A stretch of 64,000 bases of DNA from Nesterenkonia sp. E16_10 (GTDB lineage: Bacteria; Actinomycetota; Actinomycetes; Actinomycetales; Micrococcaceae). The stretch's first letter is position 1. The number at the start of each line of letters is the position of its first letter. Made by a program: the position numbers and the translations under genes. The stretch is from contig NZ_JADPSA010000001.1 of assembly GCF_017347085.1 (NCBI RefSeq), positions 1 to 64,000 on the forward strand, written 5' to 3'. The notes under the pieces were generated by a model. It made no database searches and was not told the DNA's origin. It saw only the letters and a list, made by a program, of their open reading frames with translations. Of this stretch, positions 30,131 to 45,978 are shown piece after piece.

Positions 30131-31471
30131 TCACCGAGTGCTGCGCGCGCCCAGCGTCTCGGGGTCCACCGCCTGGAACCGCACCTCGGCGCCGGGTGAG
30201 AGCTGCGCCGCCAGTGAGAGATCCTCACGCACCACGACGCCCAGCACCGGTTCTGCACTGGTCACCGGGTGCTCCGCCAGCGCCACCGAGGGCTGACCGG
30301 ATGCGGCGATGCTGATGGCCCCGCGCAGCAGCGGTTCCGCCGGCAGCGCCTCGGGCTGGGTCCGTGTGAGGGGATCATCGCCGTCCAGCAGCAGGCTGGA
30401 CCGGTCAGAGCCGGCCAGGACCTCCCAGGGCTGTCCCTCGAGCCGGGACAGGCCCGCGGCCCCGGCGCGGCGGGTGCCGAAGTACTCGACCCTGGGGCCG
30501 GGCACGTAGCGCAGCACGGTGGCCTCCCCCGGCAGCGGCAGCGGGGTGGGCGCCACGGAGGCGATGCCCACGAACCGCGAGGCCGCGCCGGCCAGCCCGA
30601 AGCGATCCCCCACCTGCACCGGGGCCGGCCCGATCCCTGCCACCGTGTCCGTGGCGGAGCTGCCCAGGACCACCGGCGCCGCCAGGCCGCCGGAGATCCC
30701 CAGGTAGCTGAAGACCCCGCGACGTGGCGGTCCCAGGTGCAGCACCTCGCCGGGGAAGACCCAGAACGGGGCGCGGCCCGGGGCGGTGCGGCTGCGCTGG
30801 GTGGTCTGGGCCACCTCGGTGCCTCCCCGGGAGATCGGCACGGGTTCCTGCGTGAGGATCTCCAGGGAGACCTCGGCCCCGGTCACAGCGAGGATGGAGG
30901 TCTGGCACAGGCGCAGGCTGAGCCCTCCCCCGCAGATCTCCAGGACCGCAGCGGAGTCATCATTGCCGATCAAACGGTTCGCCTGACGCGCGGCGGAGAA
31001 ATCGGCCGGTCCCGCGCGGCCGATGCCCAGGCCGCCGAAGCCATAGCGGCCCAGGTCCTGGATCAGGACCTGGCCCGGAGACTCGCAGGTAGCGTTCGGC
31101 AGCACCTCCACCACGGCCTCGCGCTCCTGAGGCCGCAGGCCTTCGGCGTAGGACTGCGGGATCTCGACGGCCGGGCCCCCGAGGTCCAGGGGCTCCTCGG
31201 GCGCCTCCCCGTCAGCTTCCGTGGCCGCGGAGCCGCTGGAAGCAGCAGACCTGCGCCGACGCAGCTTCAGCCGCTTGGCCTGCTTCAGCGCGGTCTGCGC
31301 GTCGCGGCGTCGGCGGAAGTCCACCAGGACCGTCCGAACCCCGGGAATCGCATCCAGCTGACCGGGGAAGGGCTGTCCGGCCAGGTGCGCCATCAGAAGA
31401 GAGCGATCTCTCTCCGCGGTGACCTCGAGGAGCAGGGCCCGCTGCCCTACTTCCCGGACGCTGTGAATCAT
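30131..31471 (-). CDS. KipI(truncated)-KipA fusion, PxpB/PxpC paralogue
   Basis: A 446-residue protein from ATG 31471. Residues 1-75 match only the first subdomain of KipI/PxpB (IHSVREVGQRALLLEV, GVRTVLVDF). The GFxPGFxY and SPGGWQLIG motifs that carry the rest of PxpB are missing. After a low-complexity linker (about 70-125), residues 130-446 form a complete KipA/PxpC (LIQDLGRYGFGGLGIGRAGPAD, ICGGGLSLRL, YLGISGGLAAPVVLGS, and P-GPR-EYF). It stands alone, without PxpA, and is a paralogue of the full fusion at 43265-45127. It probably cannot act as a 5-oxoprolinase by itself. Confidence 0.85.
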   Translation of the reverse strand: MIHSVREVGQRALLLEVTAERDRSLLMAHLAGQPFPGQLDAIPGVRTVLVDFRRRRDAQTALKQAKRLKLRRRRSAASSGSAATEADGEAPEEPLDLGGPAVEIPQSYAEGLRPQEREAVVEVLPNATCESPGQVLIQDLGRYGFGGLGIGRAGPADFSAARQANRLIGNDDSAAVLEICGGGLSLRLCQTSILAVTGAEVSLEILTQEPVPISRGGTEVAQTTQRSRTAPGRAPFWVFPGEVLHLGPPRRGVFSYLGISGGLAAPVVLGSSATDTVAGIGPAPVQVGDRFGLAGAASRFVGIASVAPTPLPLPGEATVLRYVPGPRVEYFGTRRAGAAGLSRLEGQPWEVLAGSDRSSLLLDGDDPLTRTQPEALPAEPLLRGAISIAASGQPSVALAEHPVTSAEPVLGVVVREDLSLAAQLSPGAEVRFQAVDPETLGARSTR

Positions 31472-31576
31472 CCCCCCAGCGTGCCACACCCAGGCGGCCA
31501 TCCCCTGACCTGGATCATGAGCCAGAACACGCGCACCGGCGGTCGTTTCCCCTGCGAACCATGAAACAATCGGCCT

Positions 31577-33997: not shown

Positions 33998-34810
33998 TCA
34001 GGGCACCTGGAGCGCGGCGTTGGGCAGGTCGGTGATCAGCATGTGCCCGGGGGCGTGGCTGATCGCGAGCTCCGGCCGGGACTCCATCACCGCCGCCTGC
34101 GGGGTGACCCCGCAGGCCCAGAACACCGGGGTCCATCCGGCGGGGATCTGCACCGGATCCCCGAAGTCCGGGTCGCCGAGATCGGTGATCCCCAGGTCTG
34201 CGGGGCTGCCGATGTGCACCGGGGCGCCGTGGACCCCGGGATAGCGCGAGGTGATCCGGACCGCGTCGGCGATCAGGTCCGCGGGCAGCGGGCGCATCGA
34301 GACCACGAGGGGTCCGCTGAGCCGTCCCGCCGGGGCGCAGCGAAGTGCCGTCTTGTACATCGGCACGTTCACACCCTGCTCGATGTGCGCGATCGGGATG
34401 CCAGCCTCGAGCAGCGGGGCCTCGAAGGTGAAGCTGCACCCGATCAGGAAGGCCACCAGGTCCTCGCGCCAGTACTCGAGCGCGTCGTCGGGTTCCGCGA
34501 CCAGCTCCCCCTCGCGGTAGACCCGGTAGGCCGGGATGTCGGTGCGCAGATCGCCCTGCGCCAGCAGCGGTCTGCCGGCCCCGGCGTCGTGGAACTCTCC
34601 GGGCTCGAACACGCCGAGCACCGGGCAGGACTTCGGGTTGCGCTGGGCGAAGAGCAGCATGTCGAAGGCCAGTTCTCGGGGCAGCGCCAGCAGGTTGACC
34701 TGGGCGAAGCCCGGGCTGATCCCGCTGGTGGGCCGCCGCAGCCCGGCGCGGAACTGCGCGCGGGCCGCGGCTGGACTCAGCTGGGGCGTTGACCCTGGGG
34801 GGTGGCTCAT
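33998..34810 (-). CDS. DUF1445 putative hydro-lyase (YcsI-like)
   Basis: A 270-residue DUF1445 protein. Marks are [70 protein letters not shown], and [14 protein letters not shown] near the end. Homologues include YcsI of Bacillus subtilis, located with pxp genes, and the human D-glutamate cyclase domain, which makes 5-oxoproline from D-glutamate. Its ATG overlaps the stop of the NRAMP gene (ATGA), giving the ycsG-ycsI pair. A role in 5-oxoproline/lactam metabolism is inferred from that neighbourhood and the shared operator. Confidence 0.88.
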
Positions 34811-36153
34811 CCTTCGGTCCAGAGGCTGGCCAGACCGCCCAGCGAGCTGTAGCCCATGAAGATGGTCAGCAGCCAGACCAGGACACCGAGGATCAGCAGC
34901 CACTTGGGGTACTTATAGCCCTGCAGCAGGTCCCGACGGCGCCAGGCGGCGTAGAGGATCACGGCGAAGCCCAGCGGAAGCACGGTGCCGTTGAAGGCGC
35001 CTGCCATGATCAGCAGGGTCTGCGGGGCCTGACCCAGAAGCAGGAACACCGTGGTGGTGAGCACCAGGAAGCCGAGGAAGTACCAGCTCTTGGTGCTGTC
35101 CTTGGTGTTCTTCGTGGTCAGGAAGGACACCGTGGTGTAGGTGCAGCCCAGGACCGAGGTGATCGCGGCGACCCAGAAGACCGCTCCGAAGACGCGCAGC
35201 CCGATCTCGCCGAGCGCCACCGAGAACGCGTCCGCGGCGACGTTGTCCTCAGCCAGGACCACACCGGTGGAGACCACTCCGAGCACGGCCAGGAAGAGCA
35301 GGAAGCGGATGATGGTCGCCACGACGATTCCCAGAATGGAGGTCTGGGAGATCGCCTTGACGTTCTCCACCCCGGTGTTGCCCGAGGCGATCAGCCGGTG
35401 CGCGCCGGCGTAGGTGATGTAGCCGCCGACGGTGCCGCCGATCAGCGTGGTGATCACCAGGAACTCCACCTCATCGGGGACGAAGGTCTGGCGCAGCGCC
35501 TCGCCCAGCGGCGGGGCGGTGGTGATCGCCATGAAGATCATCAGCAGGATCAGCACCGCGCCACAGGCGACGACGATCCGGTCCAGGGCGACCCCGGCCT
35601 TCTTGGAGAGGAAGATCAGCAGCGCGAGGATCACCGAGAGGCCGCCGCCGATCCGGGCGTCCATGCCGGTCATCGCGTTCAGGCCCAGACCCGCGCCGGC
35701 GATGTTGCCGATGTTGAAGACCACGCCGCCGAAGAAGATCAGCGCGGCGAGCGCCCAGCCGAGGCCAGGCAGGATCCGGTTGCCCAGGGTCTGGGCGTAG
35801 AGCCCGGAGACCCCGAGCACCCGCCAGACGTTGAGCTGCACGGCGATGTCCACCAGCACCGAGATCAGGATGGCGAAGCCGAAGGCGGCTCCGAGCTGGT
35901 AGGTGAAGGTGGCGGTCTGGGTGATGAAGCCCGGTCCCACCGCGCTGGTGGCCATCAGGAACATCGCGCCCAGCAGCGCGGTGCGGCGGGTGCGGATCAG
36001 CACCGGACCCTTGGAGTCCGTGCCGCTGGAGCCCGGGCCGCCGGAGCCCGGGCCGACCTCTGGGCCTGAGAGGTCTGCATGCTGCGGGCGCTCTTCGTGC
36101 TTCGGGCTGCGGGGTGCATCCGCAGAGGATCTGGGGGTTGAGGCGTCAGCCAC
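34807..36153 (-). CDS. NRAMP-family transporter (YcsG-like)
   Basis: A 448-residue transporter: about 60 residues of Pro/Ser/Gly-rich N-terminus, then about 11 helices starting [22 protein letters not shown], where canonical NRAMP has the DPGN metal motif. Here GPGF/TQT replaces it, as in the YcsG branch thought to carry non-metal substrates. GTG at 36153 has GGAGGG 5 bp upstream and is my chosen start; earlier frames look non-coding. It is first in the ycsG-ycsI operon, with FadR-type palindromes 99-134 bp upstream. 5-Oxoproline or lactam uptake is a reasonable inference, not shown. Confidence 0.85.
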
Positions 36154-36251
36154 AGGAGCCCTCCGTGAGTGAGTAGGGGGAACAACGCGGACACCGTGCG
36201 CAGTGCACATGTGACGTACGTCTATTCCGTGGATCACAGCTCACAGTACTG

Positions 36252-36286
36252 TTGTTCAACAATCCAAGCAAGGAATTGTGGAACAA
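36252..36286. promoter_or_regulatory. Two FadR/GntR-type operators upstream of the ycsG-ycsI operon
   Basis: TTGTTCAACAA at 36252-36262 and TTGTGGAACAA at 36276-36286, centres 24 bp apart, both followed by TCC. Both fit the FadR-subfamily pattern TNGTNNNACNA. The first is identical to the site at 45966-45976 before pxpA. On the minus strand, the TTGAAC within the first site could double as a -35 element. Confidence 0.7.
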
Positions 36287-36324
36287 TCCGCCGACCTTTT
36301 ACATGACTGTCACATGCGTCGGCC

Positions 36325-40715: not shown

Positions 40716-41393
40716 TCAGCCGCCCAGGTGTTCGAGCAGCTCGGCCTCGGCCGCATCGAGGTAGCGCAGCAGGTGCGTCTCCGCGGCCTGCCGGTCCCCC
40801 AGCGCGAGCAGCCGGGCCAGTTCCCGGTTTCGGTCGATATAGGCGTGATGGAAGCTGGGCTGCTCGGACTTGGCATAGAACGCCAGACGCATCCGCGCCA
40901 GCACCTGCTCCATGAGCGCGTCGATCATCGCGCTGCGCACCTGCGCGGCAATGGTCCGGTGGAAGACCTGGTTCGCCTGGGCCATCGCGGGGATGTCCCC
41001 GCGCTCCCTCGCCAGCTCCGCGGCGGAGACGATCCGGTGCAGGTGCTCGAGCTCCTCGGCGGGGAATGCTGCGGTGCGCACCGCGCCGACCTCCAGCACC
41101 CGGCGCACCCGGTAGACCTCGGCGATGTCTTCCGCCGAGGGCTGGTGCACGAAGACGCCGCGGTTGGGATGCCGCTCCACGAGCCCCTCGGAGGCCAGGA
41201 TCTGGAATCCGCTGCGCAGCGTGTGCCGCGAGATGTCGAGCTGTCGGGTCAGCTCGACCTCGGGAAGCTTGGTTCCTGGCCTGATGGTTCCGGCGGAGAT
41301 CGCCCCGCGCAGCAGCTCCGCGACGCGTTCCGGCACCTGAGCATGCTCGCTGAGGCCCTTGGGGGATAAGGAGCTCCACATCACATCGGTCAT
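40716..41393 (-). CDS. FadR/GntR-family regulator of the pxp cluster
   Basis: A 225-residue GntR regulator. The winged HTH reads LRGAISAGTIRPGTKLPEVEL then LDISRHTLRSGFQILASEGLVERHPNRGVFV. The C-terminal FCD domain (VYRVRRVLEVGAVRTAAF, ANQVFHRTIA, HHAYIDRNRELARLLALGD) has His residues that bind metal and organic-acid ligands in relatives. It follows the biotin carboxylase gene by 54 bp on the same strand and so closes the pxp operon. The FadR-type palindromes before pxpA and ycsG are its probable targets. The ligand may be 5-oxoproline or a related acid (inference). Confidence 0.88.
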   Translation of the reverse strand: MTDVMWSSLSPKGLSEHAQVPERVAELLRGAISAGTIRPGTKLPEVELTRQLDISRHTLRSGFQILASEGLVERHPNRGVFVHQPSAEDIAEVYRVRRVLEVGAVRTAAFPAEELEHLHRIVSAAELARERGDIPAMAQANQVFHRTIAAQVRSAMIDALMEQVLARMRLAFYAKSEQPSFHHAYIDRNRELARLLALGDRQAAETHLLRYLDAAEAELLEHLGG

Positions 41394-41447: not shown

Positions 41448-43268
41448 TCATTCGATGGCGCCCAGCGCCTGGCCGGCGCGCAGCGCCGCACCGGGGGCAA
41501 GGTCCTCACGCCGGAAGCGTCCGCCGCGCGGGGCGGCCACGGTGGACTCCATCTTCATCGCCTCCACCACCGCGACCGGGTCCCCGGCGGAGACCTCGGC
41601 GCCGTCCTCCACCGCGAAGTTGACCAGGCTGCCGGCCAGCTTCGTCACCACGGCGCCGGGCGCGGCGTCGGTGGGGGCGTCCCTGGCGTCGTCGTCGGTG
41701 GCGTCGTGACCGGCCCCGGCACCTGCGCCGCCGCCGCTGCCGCCGCCGCTGCCGCTGCCGAGCAGGTTCAGCAGGGCGGCCGGCAGTCCCAGGCTCACCG
41801 CGCGGCCGTCGATCTCCACGGTGGTGCGACGCATCCGCTGCTCCCGGTGGCGCAGCGCGGCGACGAGATGCTCGGAGTCGACCATGGACTCGCCGTAGGC
41901 TTCCTCGAACTCGGTCTCGATCCAGCGGGTGTGGACCCGGAAGGTCTCCGCCCCGTCGGCGGCGAGGAAGTCCTCGGCCTCGAGCACCTGCCGGTGGAAG
42001 GGCAGCACGGTGGGCAGACCCTCGATGCGCATCTCGGCCAGAGCCATCCGGGCCCGGCGCAGCGTGGTGTCCCGGTCCGGTCCGGTGACCACGAGCTTGG
42101 CCAGCATCGAATCGAAGGCGCCGGAGATCTCATCTCCACTGCGCACCCCGGTGTCGACCCGGATGCCGGGGCCGGTGGGCGGGGCGAAGAGCGTCACCGG
42201 TCCGGGGGTGGGCAGGAATCCCTGGGCCGGCTCCTCAGCGTTGAGCCGGAACTCGATGGAGTGCCCGTGCGGCTGCGGGTCTTCTGTGAGGCGCAGCGGC
42301 TGCCCTTCGGCGATGCGCAGCTGTTCGGCCACCAGGTCCACCCCGGAGGTCTCCTCGGTGACGGGGTGTTCCACCTGGAGCCGGGTGTTGACCTCCAGGA
42401 AGCTCAGCAGGCCGGGTGTCTCGCCCTGGCCGGGGCTGAGCAGGTATTCCACGGTGCCGGCTCCGAGGTATCCGGCCTCGGCGCAGATCGCTCGGGCGGA
42501 GCGGTGGATGTCGGCGCGCTGGTCCTCGCTGAGGAACGGCGCGGGCGCCTCTTCCACGAGCTTCTGGTTCCGCCGCTGCAGCGAGCAGTCTCGGGTGCCG
42601 ACGACGACGACGTTGCCCTGGGCGTCCGCGAGGACCTGGGCCTCCACGTGCCGTGGCCGGTCCAGGAACCGTTCCACGAAGCATTCTCCGCGGCCGAAGG
42701 CGGATTCGGCCTCGCGCGTCGCCGAGGCGAAGGCCTCATCGATCTCGGACTCCTCGCGCACGATGCGCATCCCGCGGCCCCCGCCGCCATGGGCGGCCTT
42801 GATCGCCACCGGCAGTCCGTGCTCGGCCACGAACTCGCGGATCTCCTCGCCGCCGGAGACCGGGCCGTCGGTGCCCGGGACCAGCGGGGCGCCGACCTTG
42901 ACCGCGAGCGCCCGGGCGGTGACCTTGTTCCCGAGGGCTTCAATGGTCTCGGGCTTCGGGCCGATCCAGGTCAGTCCGGCGTCGATCACGGCGCGGGCGA
43001 AGTCGGCGTTCTCCGAGAGGAAGCCGTAGCCGGGGTGGATCGCGTCGGCGTCGAGCTCGCGGGCGGCGGCGAGGAGCTTCTGCTGGTCCAGGTAGGTCTG
43101 CGCCGGGGTGGTGCCGTGCAGCGCCACCGCCGCGTCGGCCAGCTGGACATGCAGCGAGTCCGCGTCCTGGTCGGCGTAGACCGCGGCGGCGCTGTAGCCG
43201 GATTCGCGGGCGCTGCGGATGATGCGGACGGCGATCTCGCCACGGTTGGCGATCAGGATTCGCTTCAT
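41448..43268 (-). CDS. Biotin carboxylase-BCCP protein of the pxp operon
   Basis: A 606-residue protein. The biotin carboxylase domain spans residues 1-450: [49 protein letters not shown] (ATP-grasp), [14 protein letters not shown] (catalytic Arg/Glu). A Gly-rich linker (about 512-532) leads to a biotinyl domain with EAMKMES, biotinyl Lys at 572. It charges biotin with CO2 using ATP. No acyl-CoA carboxyltransferase gene is nearby; instead the gene overlaps the PxpB-PxpC fusion by 4 bp (ATGA). In urea carboxylase the carboxyltransferase is a KipI-KipA domain, so this protein probably partners the fusion, though acyl-CoA carboxylase use elsewhere is possible. Confidence 0.92.
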
Positions 43269-45127
43269 GATGAGGGCTTCTTTTCTGCGTCAGGGGTCGC
43301 GGTGGTCTGGGGCAGCGGGGTCAGCGTGTCGGGATCCACGGGGACCAGGGTGATCTGGTCTCCGGGGGCGAGCTGGGCGGCACGCGGGAGGTCTTGGTCG
43401 ATGACGACGCCGATCACCGGGTATCCCCCGGTCACCGGGTGGTCGTTGAGGAAGAGCACCGGGGTGCCGGCGGGGGGCATCTGCAGCGAACCGCGGACCA
43501 CGCCCTCACTGGGAAGCTCACCCTCCTTGATCCGGCGCAGCGGGCGCGGGGAGTCCGGTGCGGGAGTCTCCGGTGCAGGAGTCTCCGGCTCGGGGACATC
43601 GAGCCGGATCCCGATCCGGTTCGAGGACTGGGAGACCGCCCAGGGCTGCGCCGCCAGCCGAGCGGCCTCCTCGGGGCTGAACCAGTCGGCCCGCGGACCG
43701 TAGGTGAAGCGCAGCGCGGTCGGCAGCCTGAGGGTGGGCGACTCAGCCGCGGAAGGCTCAGACCGAGGCTCGGCCACGGCGCCGGTGGCGACCCCGGCGG
43801 TGCGCAGCCGGTCTCCGGCCGCGAGCGGAGCCGGGCCCAACCCGGACATGGTGTCAGCGGAGACGCTGCCGAGCACCGGCGCGGCGGCGATGCCTCCGCG
43901 CAGCCCGATCACGCTGCGCAGTCCCCGTTCGGGGGCGCCGAGGCTCAGGGTCTCCCCCGCGGCGAGGGCGAAAGCGGTGCCCAGCGGGGCTCCCCGGCCG
44001 GACCCATCGGGGGCGGTGATGGTCAGCGGCGCCTGTGCCCCGGCGACCGCGAGCACCACGGTGGCTTCGGCGTGCAGGCTGAGTCCGCCATGCAGCGCTT
44101 CGAGCACTGCGGCCTGCGCGGGATTGCCCAGAAGCCGGTTCACCTCTCGGGCGGCGGCTTCATCGGCGACCCCGGCGCGGGAGACTCCGAGGTCGCTGAG
44201 TCCGCTGCGGCCGAGATCCTGGATCAGGGTCTGCAGACCCGGGTCCAGCACGGTGAGCGCGAGGTCCTCGCGACCGTGGGAGCCCTCGGTCGCGGTGTTC
44301 TCGGTTGCGGTGTCCTCGGTCGCGGCATCCTGCGGGTTCAGCGGGCCCGGCGGGTTCAGCGGGTTCGAGGGTGCATCGCGCGCGGTGGACTCGGTGGTCA
44401 CCGCGCGGGCCGTGACGGGCTTGTACCGCACCGAGTCCCCTGGCCGGACCAGCGCCGGGGATTCGCCGTGGGCTTCTCGGGAGAGGTCCCACATGGTGGC
44501 CGGGGTGTGACCGATCAGCTGCCAGCCGCCCGGCGAGACCCGCGGGTAGACCGCAGAGAACTCACCGGCCAGCGCCACGGCACCGGCCGGCACCGCCGTG
44601 CGGGGGCTGCTGCGACGCGGCACATCGAAGGCGCCCGCAGGGCCGGAATCAGCGCGGCCGGAATCAGCGCGGCCGGAGTCGGCGCTGGAGTCGTTTCCGG
44701 AGCTGCGTTGAGCGGGCTCCCCCGAGGCCGGAACAGGCACGCAATAGGTGAACCCGGGGGCGAATCCGCCGAAGGCTCCGGTCCACGAGGTGGAACTGTG
44801 CCAGTCGATCAACGCCTCGACGCTCATCTCCAGATGCGAGGCCAGCTCCTGGAGGTCCTCCCCGTCGTAGACGATCTCCAGCTCCACGTGGCGAGAGTCT
44901 GCGGTCGAGAACTCCCCCAGCTCCAGGCTGGGCAGCCGGGTCCGGGCTTCGCGCAGGGCAGGGCGGGCGGTGAAGCGCAGCAAGATGGTGCGAGCCGCCG
45001 CCACCGCCTCGACCTGGCCGGGCAGCGGGTCTCGGCGCAGCTGCTGATGCCAGGTCAGCACCTGGTCCAGGGTGTCGAACTCCAGCAGCAGCGCGCGGGG
45101 GCCGGCCTCTCGGATGGCGCGGATCAT
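43265..45127 (-). CDS. pxpBC: PxpB-PxpC (KipI-KipA) fusion, 5-oxoprolinase subunits B and C
   Basis: A 620-residue fusion. PxpB/KipI occupies residues 1-240: [27 protein letters not shown], then [23 protein letters not shown] with [16 protein letters not shown]. It has a Ser/Asp/Arg repeat insert at 138-166. A Thr/Glu/Asn-repeat linker (241-287) leads to PxpC/KipA ([46 protein letters not shown]). With PxpA such proteins cleave 5-oxo-L-proline to glutamate with ATP. The fold is also that of the urea carboxylase carboxyltransferase domain. It overlaps pxpA upstream and the biotin carboxylase downstream by 4 bp each, implying fixed stoichiometry. Confidence 0.93.
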
Positions 45128-45894
45128 GCGAAGCTGCGGATCTCGACTCCGGCGCCTTCCAGCGCGGTGCGCACCGCCTGGGCCATCGCCACCGCACCGG
45201 GGGTATCGCCGTGGGTGCAGATGGACTCTGCCTGGGTCTCGATGCGGGTGCCATCGCGGGCGATCAGCACCGACTCCTCGGCCAGGCGCAGCATGTTCTC
45301 CACGATCTGGTCGGTGTCATGCAGGACGGCGTCGGGCTCGCGCCGGGAGACCAGGGTGCCGTCGGGGTTGTAGCTGCGATCGGCGAAGGCCTCGGAGATC
45401 CCGCGCAGGCCGGCCTCGGCGGCGTAGTCCAGAGCGATCGAGCCGGGCAGCAGCAGCACCGGGAGGTCGCGCCCGGTGCTCTCGCGGTAGGCCGCGATGG
45501 TGTCGATGACCGCGTGGGCGTGCCCGGTGTGGGAGATCATCGCGTGATACAGCGCGCCGTGCGGCTTCACGTACCGGATGTGGGACCCCAGCCCCAGGGC
45601 GATCCCTTCCAGGGCGCCGAGCTGATAGAGCACGTCGGCGGCGAGCTCCTCGGGAGAACACTCCAGGTGACGGCGACCGAAGCCGGCGAGGTCGCGGTAG
45701 CCGATATGGGCTCCGATGACGACGTCGTTGGCCACTGCCTCGCTGGCGGTGGCCCGGATGGTCAGCGGGTCCCCCGCGTGGAAGCCGCAGGCGATGTTCG
45801 CGCTGGAGACGGTGCGCAGGATGGCGGCGTCGTCCCCGCTGGTCCAGTTGCCGAAGGACTCTCCGACGTCGCTGTTCAGGTCGATCTGTGCCAC
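45124..45894 (-). CDS. pxpA: 5-oxoprolinase subunit A (LamB/YcsF family)
   Basis: A 256-residue LamB/YcsF protein, usual length. The hallmark N-terminus [14 protein letters not shown] followed by [14 protein letters not shown] is complete, with [29 protein letters not shown], and [17 protein letters not shown] further on. GTG at 45894 has GAGGAGG 5 bp upstream. PxpA carries out the hydrolytic half of 5-oxoprolinase; the family also includes fungal lactam-utilisation protein LamB. First gene of the coupled operon with pxpBC, the biotin carboxylase and the FadR-type regulator. A palindromic operator lies 70-84 bp upstream. Confidence 0.95.
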
Positions 45895-45963: not shown

Positions 45964-45978
45964 GATTGTTCAACAATC
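45964..45978. promoter_or_regulatory. FadR/GntR-type operator upstream of pxpA
   Basis: The 15-bp perfect palindrome GATTGTTCAACAATC (7-bp arms, central C) fits the FadR-subfamily consensus TNGTNNNACNA and contains the same TTGTTCAACAA found before the ycsG-ycsI operon at 36252. The probable binder is the GntR-type protein encoded at the end of the pxp operon. Confidence 0.72.

Follow-up and report, generated by a model that had tools for sequence, protein, structure and literature searches.

A biotin carboxylase gene coupled to pxpA and pxpBC in Nesterenkonia suggests a biotin-dependent variant of the 5-oxoprolinase PxpABC

The subject of this analysis is a three-gene operon of Nesterenkonia sp. 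E16_10, located on the minus strand of a stretch of 64,000 nucleotides (contig NZ_JADPSA010000001.1, positions 1 to 64,000; the window in the following). Its products are PxpA, a fusion of PxpB and PxpC (PxpBC), and a biotin carboxylase (BC) with its own biotin carboxyl carrier protein (BCCP) domain. 5-Oxoproline is a cyclic glutamate by-product, which is recycled by PxpABC. We propose, with a probability of about 0.7, that this prokaryotic 5-oxoprolinase has a biotin-dependent variant, encoded by the operon, in which carboxybiotin would activate the lactam and PxpA would open it. A preliminary description of the window had suggested a split urea-carboxylase-like lactam system. The core of this suggestion, a split biotin enzyme that acts together with PxpA on a lactam, finds good support in the conservation of the arrangement, in natural fusions, in a carboxylase clade common to such loci, and in a solved complex of relatives; the lactam can be narrowed to 5-oxoproline, and urea is not supported.

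Reading the junction sequences confirmed that both pxpA/pxpBC and pxpBC/BC overlap by ATGA at the coordinates of Table 1, and the Pfam matches agree with the initial assignment of a LamB/YcsF protein, a KipI-KipA fusion, and a BC with a biotinyl domain. PxpA exceeded the cut-off of the NCBIfam model PRK05406.1-3 'PxpA' (330.6 versus 226 bits). PxpBC scored 157 bits for CT_C_D and 248 bits for CT_A_B, both over the Pfam cut-offs, and the third protein contains the domains Biotin_carb_N, CPSase_L_D2, Biotin_carb_C, and Biotin_lipoyl. All domains of urea carboxylase, namely BC, carboxyltransferase (CT), and BCCP, are thus present in two proteins next to PxpA, as had been claimed. The BC is identical to E. 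coli biotin carboxylase at 10/10 positions checked, which we take to be catalytic or active-site positions, and the AMKM motif of the BCCP domain places the biotinyl lysine at 572, the residue named beforehand. Ratios of nonsynonymous to synonymous substitution rates (dN/dS) relative to related genomes were 0.12-0.14 for the BC gene (three pairs) and 0.26 and 0.32 for pxpBC (two pairs), which indicates that both genes are maintained. The closest named relative found for the window PxpBC is that of Nesterenkonia aurantiaca (86% identity).

Conservation of this arrangement was studied in the family to which the genome belongs. Among 120 genomes drawn, 109 gave a PxpBC match, and the best locus was read in 108 of them, all except G098, which came without a listed place. 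A BC was called linked if its gene lay at most 600 nucleotides 3' of pxpBC and had the same orientation. By this definition, BC is linked to pxpBC in 71/108 loci, and no AccD match occurred in any of the 108 within the fetched flanks of about 1.5-5 kb. The commonest spacing in the 70 loci measured is a four-nucleotide overlap. PxpB, PxpC, and BC even lie in one open frame at loci L030, L037, L144, and L150, which belong to four genomes of genus g20; this frame reads through the BCCP domain in L144 and L150, and the fetched stretch of L030 and L037 ends earlier. In a fifth g20 genome (L178), the locus is diverged: the BC (28% identity) is in another frame, and PxpC has diverged too. That the coupling of BC and pxpBC is not accidental is well supported by these sequences.

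It could be argued that BC-BCCP is an extra alpha subunit of acyl-CoA carboxylase, which serves the AccD of the genome and entered the operon by chance. The window protein has both the BC-BCCP architecture and the active site of such a subunit; moreover, its BC domain shares 65% identity with the AccA of the same genome, and the TRWIETEF segment occurs in both proteins. However, a housekeeping AccA was found in 31/31 family genomes searched (at 74-83% identity, or 100% in the genome of the window), whereas a second AccA-like BC (64-69% identity) occurs in 16 of them and, judged by coordinates, adjoins pxpBC in 16/16. A seventeenth genome (G018) has only degraded BC pieces, again beside pxpBC, and a single AccA-like match (54-58%) above 50% identity was obtained in 8/8 BC-less genomes tested. 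The genome's AccD adjoins its own AccA at 94-99 kb of contig C1, about 48 kb away and outside the window. Within the flanks read, no acyl-CoA carboxyltransferase gene lies beside the BC-BCCP gene, the rest of window and genome not having been scanned for further carboxyltransferases. In view of the conserved linkage, the paralogs at pxpBC, the clade described below, and the single-frame fusions, an accidental neighbourhood was judged unlikely, and we consider an extra alpha subunit serving AccD highly improbable. A further biotin carboxylase (45% identical) is encoded outside the window at G000:C31:24374-25684 (L011).

The BC tree comprised 63 sequences: 18 rows sampled from the family, those other linked rows whose BC was long enough, and reference BCs. 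Three housekeeping rows were left out (one with a stop, all with a very long branch). The 26 fused-type pxp-linked BCs, among them the window BC, form one clade (support 95/92), which spans Actinomycetota and Pseudomonadota, has members from Micrococcaceae, Shinella, Paracoccus, and plasmids of Klebsiella and P. aeruginosa, and sits next to AccA (support 96/77). Other linked BCs fall elsewhere: those of Moraxella and Microvirga group with E. coli AccC, the Rhizobium type constitutes a further group, and those of Lactiplantibacillus and one actinobacterial family group with Lactobacillaceae AccC (with a long-branch warning). The label "linked" needs seven changes on this tree, and supported branches force at least four. 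We read this as several probably independent recruitments of BCs to pxp loci. The PxpC tree (96 of 159 rows) likewise places linked loci in more than one lineage; it requires 15 changes of the label, of which supported branches force at least two, and a single origin is not supported.

For a wider view, 198 genomes of the phylum were sampled; 47 had a PxpA, and 40 of 49 listed places were fetched. Eleven of these loci, one of them from the window's family, contain pxpB/C, BC, and BCCP; 22 have pxpB/C alone, five PxpA alone, one only a BCCP at a contig end, and one an AccA-AccD pair instead. A further 19 plasmid loci were chosen by hand, so that no frequency can be read from them: 11 contain pxpA, B, C plus BC and BCCP, three contain pxpABC without BC, four PxpA alone, and one PxpA with BC and BCCP only. 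Those with linked BC and BCCP include loci of Shinella, Paracoccus, Klebsiella, P. aeruginosa, Rhizobium, Sulfitobacter, Lactiplantibacillus, Moraxella, and the archaeon Haladaptatus. Note that all counts rest on the family and phylum genomes and these plasmids, a scan of genome contigs having yielded three loci only. In Rhizobium, Lactiplantibacillus, Haladaptatus, Sulfitobacter, and Moraxella, BC and BCCP are separate genes by pxpABC; if our proposal is true, it corrects 'acetyl-CoA carboxylase' annotations in loci such as these. Our literature searches found no report that assigns a biotin carboxylase to a Pxp system, an earlier mention in a 2017 paper of the Journal of Biological Chemistry being possible. 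For Lactiplantibacillus pentosus, extra BC/BCCP genes and pxpB/pxpC are given as separate findings in the part of the paper available to us (PMC12427679). On a Klebsiella variicola IncFIB plasmid that was typed as conjugative (L117), a module of GntR, PxpT-like, PxpA, YcsI-like, PxpBC, and BC-BCCP genes is flanked on both sides by insertion-sequence genes. PxpA was matched by 98 Klebsiella plasmid records.

The structure of the window PxpBC was modelled with AlphaFold2 (mean predicted local distance difference test score 81). In structure comparisons, the model matched TTHA0988, Mycobacterium smegmatis MSMEG_0435-0436, and E. coli YbgJK, and also K. lactis urea amidolyase and urea carboxylase. 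A further match was PDB entry 9yx5, 'Structure of the long chain acyl-CoA carboxylase complex from Mycobacterium smegmatis with MSMEG_0435-MSMEG_0436 bound'. Besides allophanate hydrolase subunits 1 and 2, which are PxpB/PxpC relatives, its chain list includes the AccA alpha3 subunit and two propionyl-CoA carboxylase beta chains. The entry is known here from title and chain list, not from coordinates, and literature searches found no paper on it. Going by title and chains, proteins related to PxpB-PxpC associate with a complex that contains a biotin carboxylase. Since this complex contains AccA3, it hints at a borrowed housekeeping BC, and we tentatively raise the possibility that PxpABC 5-oxoprolinases in general are biotin-dependent carboxylase-hydrolases, which would use either a dedicated linked BC or, elsewhere, one borrowed from fatty-acid synthesis. 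In that case, phosphorylation, the mechanism accepted at present, would not apply to many of these enzymes. The earlier premise that PxpABC is biotin-free fits the best known operons and may not hold generally.

Urea carboxylase and urea amidolyase (TIGR02712; PDB 3va7, 5i8i) resemble the window system in having BC, both CT subdomain pairs, BCCP, and the same CT fold. In contrast, the window system consists of two polypeptides, has another domain order and PxpA as partner, and differs in residues at conserved positions. With 516.8 and 149.2 bits, the two window proteins missed the TIGR02712 cut-off of 1303.85 bits. PxpBC keeps nearly all columns conserved across PxpBC proteins and departs from them at a few (e.g. 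V320, V406); at positions 549 and 569, it has glutamine and tyrosine versus aspartate and phenylalanine in urea carboxylases, only two bacterial ones being compared. Membership in this family was rejected because of the missed cut-off and the PxpBC-type residues at several conserved positions, and the latter also speak against urea, which had been listed as a possible substrate.

The most likely substrate is 5-oxoproline. This assignment, well supported at the level of sequence, is based on a PxpR-type operator, PxpT-like and YcsI-like neighbours, and a decayed second copy of pxpBC. According to the available part of the pertinent paper, C. glutamicum PxpR represses pxpTABC via agattgttcaacaatct, and PxpT is NRAMP-like (PMC13274462). 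The window resembles this system in having an NRAMP-type transporter, a GntR regulator, and a PxpR-type operator. An exact match, GATTGTTNAACAATC, of the core of the operator tested in C. glutamicum precedes pxpA, and two weaker sites precede the PxpT-like gene (Table 1); with up to two mismatches, no other sites were found in the 3.3 Mb assembly, and a control pattern gave no matches there. The exact core was found upstream of pxpA in 58/82 loci with BC versus 6/82 without and in 0/820 single-base shuffles. With zero or one mismatch, it occurs anywhere in 64/71 linked versus 5/36 unlinked family loci, related genomes being counted many times. The PxpT-like protein, likened to C. glutamicum PxpT by its NRAMP family, is a probable 5-oxoproline importer. 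Its gene is present in 5/5 genomes of the genus with the BC-linked operon, and no match was found in the remaining one searched (G012). Among linked family loci, 16/71 have a PxpT-like and 10/71 a YcsI-like gene, versus 0/36 unlinked loci for both (short flanks). The family match of the window YcsI-like protein begins at residue 41, the true start being probably further downstream.

The genus has retained a trace of another pxp locus. In G012, an intact BC-less pxpBC with pxpA lies between a polyprenyl-phosphate transporter gene and a gene of the major facilitator superfamily (MFS). In the other five genus genomes searched, including that of the window, a changed pxpBC persists without stops; it has no adjacent pxpA, and next to it lie the operon with the linked BC and the PxpT-like gene. 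The window copy lies between the same neighbours as the intact pxpBC of G012 and groups, together with three other decayed copies, with the BC-less PxpBC of that genome (support 100/99; the decayed-copy row L252 was taken from the wrong strand, and its placement in this tree is meaningless). Many otherwise conserved residues are lost, and dN/dS is 0.24-0.27 (four pairs); the decayed copy is therefore probably translated, though not catalytic in the old way, and is possibly a pseudoenzyme with a new role. The decay of a BC-less copy beside a BC-linked one suggests that both served the same reaction.

An alternative is that the main substrate is another lactam or amide, e.g. 2-pyrrolidinone, 5-oxo-D-proline, or urea. 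Distant loci with enzymes of the γ-aminobutyric acid (GABA) type (Paenarthrobacter, Haladaptatus) or with molybdopterin-hydroxylase domains (two actinobacterial loci) would fit, and the YcsI-like cyclase could point to 5-oxo-D-proline. On the other hand, PxpR-type sites occur only at pxpA and the PxpT-like gene, the adjoining BC-less pxpBC has decayed, and urea-carboxylase residues are absent. In addition, C. glutamicum PxpR binds 5-oxo-L-proline with a dissociation constant of 726 nM and, as far as the available part of the paper goes, in which other lactams are not named, none of four other amino acids tested (PMC13274462). Lactams other than 5-oxoproline are thus less likely, and we regard a different main substrate as quite unlikely.

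For the biotin-dependent 5-oxoprolinase proposed here, sequence or structure supports the gene content, the intact active site, the conserved and in places fused coupling, the operator, the decay of the BC-less copy, and the complex of relatives. Which protein is the regulator, that the lactam receives the carboxyl group, and all of the kinetics are inferred, as follows. The BC domain would carboxylate the biotin on Lys572 with ATP and bicarbonate, and the carrier domain would deliver carboxybiotin to PxpB-PxpC, which has the CT fold of urea carboxylase. PxpBC would then carboxylate the lactam of 5-oxoproline at N or O, in analogy to the carboxylation of urea by urea carboxylase. PxpA would hydrolyse the activated ring, and the resulting N-carboxyglutamate would shed CO2 to give glutamate; bicarbonate would thus be catalytic, and the uphill ring opening would be paid for by ATP. 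A PxpR-type GntR regulator would turn on the operon and the PxpT-like transporter when 5-oxoproline is present. If this is true, a lactam joins acyl-CoAs, pyruvate, and urea as substrates of biotin-dependent carboxylases, and the fold common to urea carboxylase and PxpBC becomes easier to explain. Caprolactamase CapAB and the eukaryotic-type 5-oxoprolinase are alike in the ATP-dependent opening of a lactam and, to our knowledge, have no biotin domain. CapAB needs bicarbonate, a carboxylated lactim being one of three mechanisms proposed, and is unrelated to PxpABC by that paper's own comparison, in the part available (PMC8453981). The same part gives, for the 5-oxoprolinase of P. putida, subunits of 64 and 51 kDa for component A and 82 kDa for component B (PMC8453981). 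In three plasmid relatives of the window operon, BC-BCCP has 62 kDa, fused PxpBC 54-57 kDa, and PxpA 26-27 kDa, whereas E. coli PxpB and PxpC have 24 and 34 kDa; the sizes of component A are nearer to BC-BCCP plus PxpBC, which is suggestive only.

Several observations weigh against this proposal. First, pxpB/C occurs without an adjoining BC in 36/108 family loci (one further locus ends at a contig edge), in the 22 of 40 phylum loci mentioned above, and in E. coli K-12 (pxpBCA), Bacillus badius, Methylobacterium, and Vibrio; moreover, 2/71 linked BCs are poorly preserved (28% identity in L178; 47% over 687 nucleotides in L180). Second, conserved PxpBC positions were searched for residues that tell BC-linked from BC-less proteins, and none were found; since these residues are alike in both groups, no residue marks the use of carboxybiotin. 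Third, PxpBC missed the NCBIfam equivalog cut-offs of TIGR00370 (PxpB; 103.7 versus 145.55 bits) and NF045499 (PxpC; 146.5 versus 500 bits). The operator is absent in 7/71 linked and present in 5/36 unlinked loci, relatedness inflating such counts; the 51 kDa subunit of P. putida is smaller than the PxpBC fusions measured; and the binding of PxpB-PxpC relatives in 9yx5 may be regulatory. Finally, PxpA, PxpB, and PxpC of B. subtilis reportedly reconstituted 5-oxoprolinase activity without added biotin carboxylase.

The BC-less operons and the residues common to both groups would fit a different view, in which PxpA and PxpBC suffice as a canonical 5-oxoprolinase, the lactam is phosphorylated by PxpBC at the expense of ATP, and BC-BCCP is bound but regulatory or activity-boosting. 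The window operon shares with the PxpABC systems of B. subtilis, E. coli, and C. glutamicum (pxpTABC) homologs of PxpA, PxpB, and PxpC with the same conserved residues; it differs in the added BC-BCCP gene and the fusion of PxpB with PxpC, the E. coli set having no biotin enzyme. Phosphorylation by PxpB and PxpC is a published assumption, the activation mechanism being assumed, not shown, in the available part of the paper (PMC13274462). However, the BC has kept both its active site and its biotin site intact under selection, linkage to several BC types and a single-frame fusion are unusual for a regulator, and the PxpBC fold is common to the CT of urea carboxylase. We therefore consider a canonical enzyme with an accessory BC unlikely and prefer the biotin-dependent variant. 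A widespread Pxp version that has its own BC, sometimes in one frame, makes the question of 5-oxoproline activation testable.

Table 1. Coordinates of the operon and related features in the window.
Feature	Position	Strand	Remarks
PxpA (LamB/YcsF), proposed ring-opening subunit	45124-45894	-	256 aa, GTG start; PF03746, 307 bits
PxpB-PxpC fusion (KipI-KipA), urea-carboxylase-type carboxyltransferase fold	43265-45127	-	620 aa; PF02682 and PF02626
Biotin carboxylase with BCCP domain, biotinyl Lys572	41448-43268	-	606 aa; Pfam
GntR/FCD regulator, candidate PxpR	40716-41393	-	next downstream gene, same strand; PF00392 and PF07729
PxpR-type operator core, exact match	45964-45978	.	70 nucleotides upstream of pxpA
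Weaker PxpR-type site, 2 mismatches	36250-36264	.	upstream of PxpT-like gene
Second weaker PxpR-type site, 2 mismatches	36274-36288	.	upstream of PxpT-like gene
PxpT-like NRAMP-family transporter, probable 5-oxoproline uptake	34807-36237	-	PF01566
YcsI-like D-glutamate cyclase / putative hydro-lyase	33998-34903	-	PF07286, 217 bits; NF003969, 387 bits
Decayed second PxpBC without PxpA, remnant of BC-less pxp locus	30131-31501	-	456 aa; groups with G012 PxpBC

The fungal lamA/lamB 2-pyrrolidinone locus was considered as a possible precedent and set aside, the one paper found giving nothing useful. The distant loci mentioned above have the following gene content. On plasmids of Paenarthrobacter (L122) and Haladaptatus (L126), PxpA and BC genes lie beside genes of a class III aminotransferase and an aldehyde dehydrogenase, and L122 additionally has glutamine-synthetase-like and gamma-glutamyl-GABA hydrolase genes; these loci are possible 2-pyrrolidinone/GABA versions. 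In two actinobacterial loci (L099 and L107), pxpB-pxpC-pxpA-BCCP, with BC nearby, adjoins genes with molybdopterin hydroxylase (xanthine dehydrogenase-like) domains, and the encoded enzymes perhaps act on another ring substrate.

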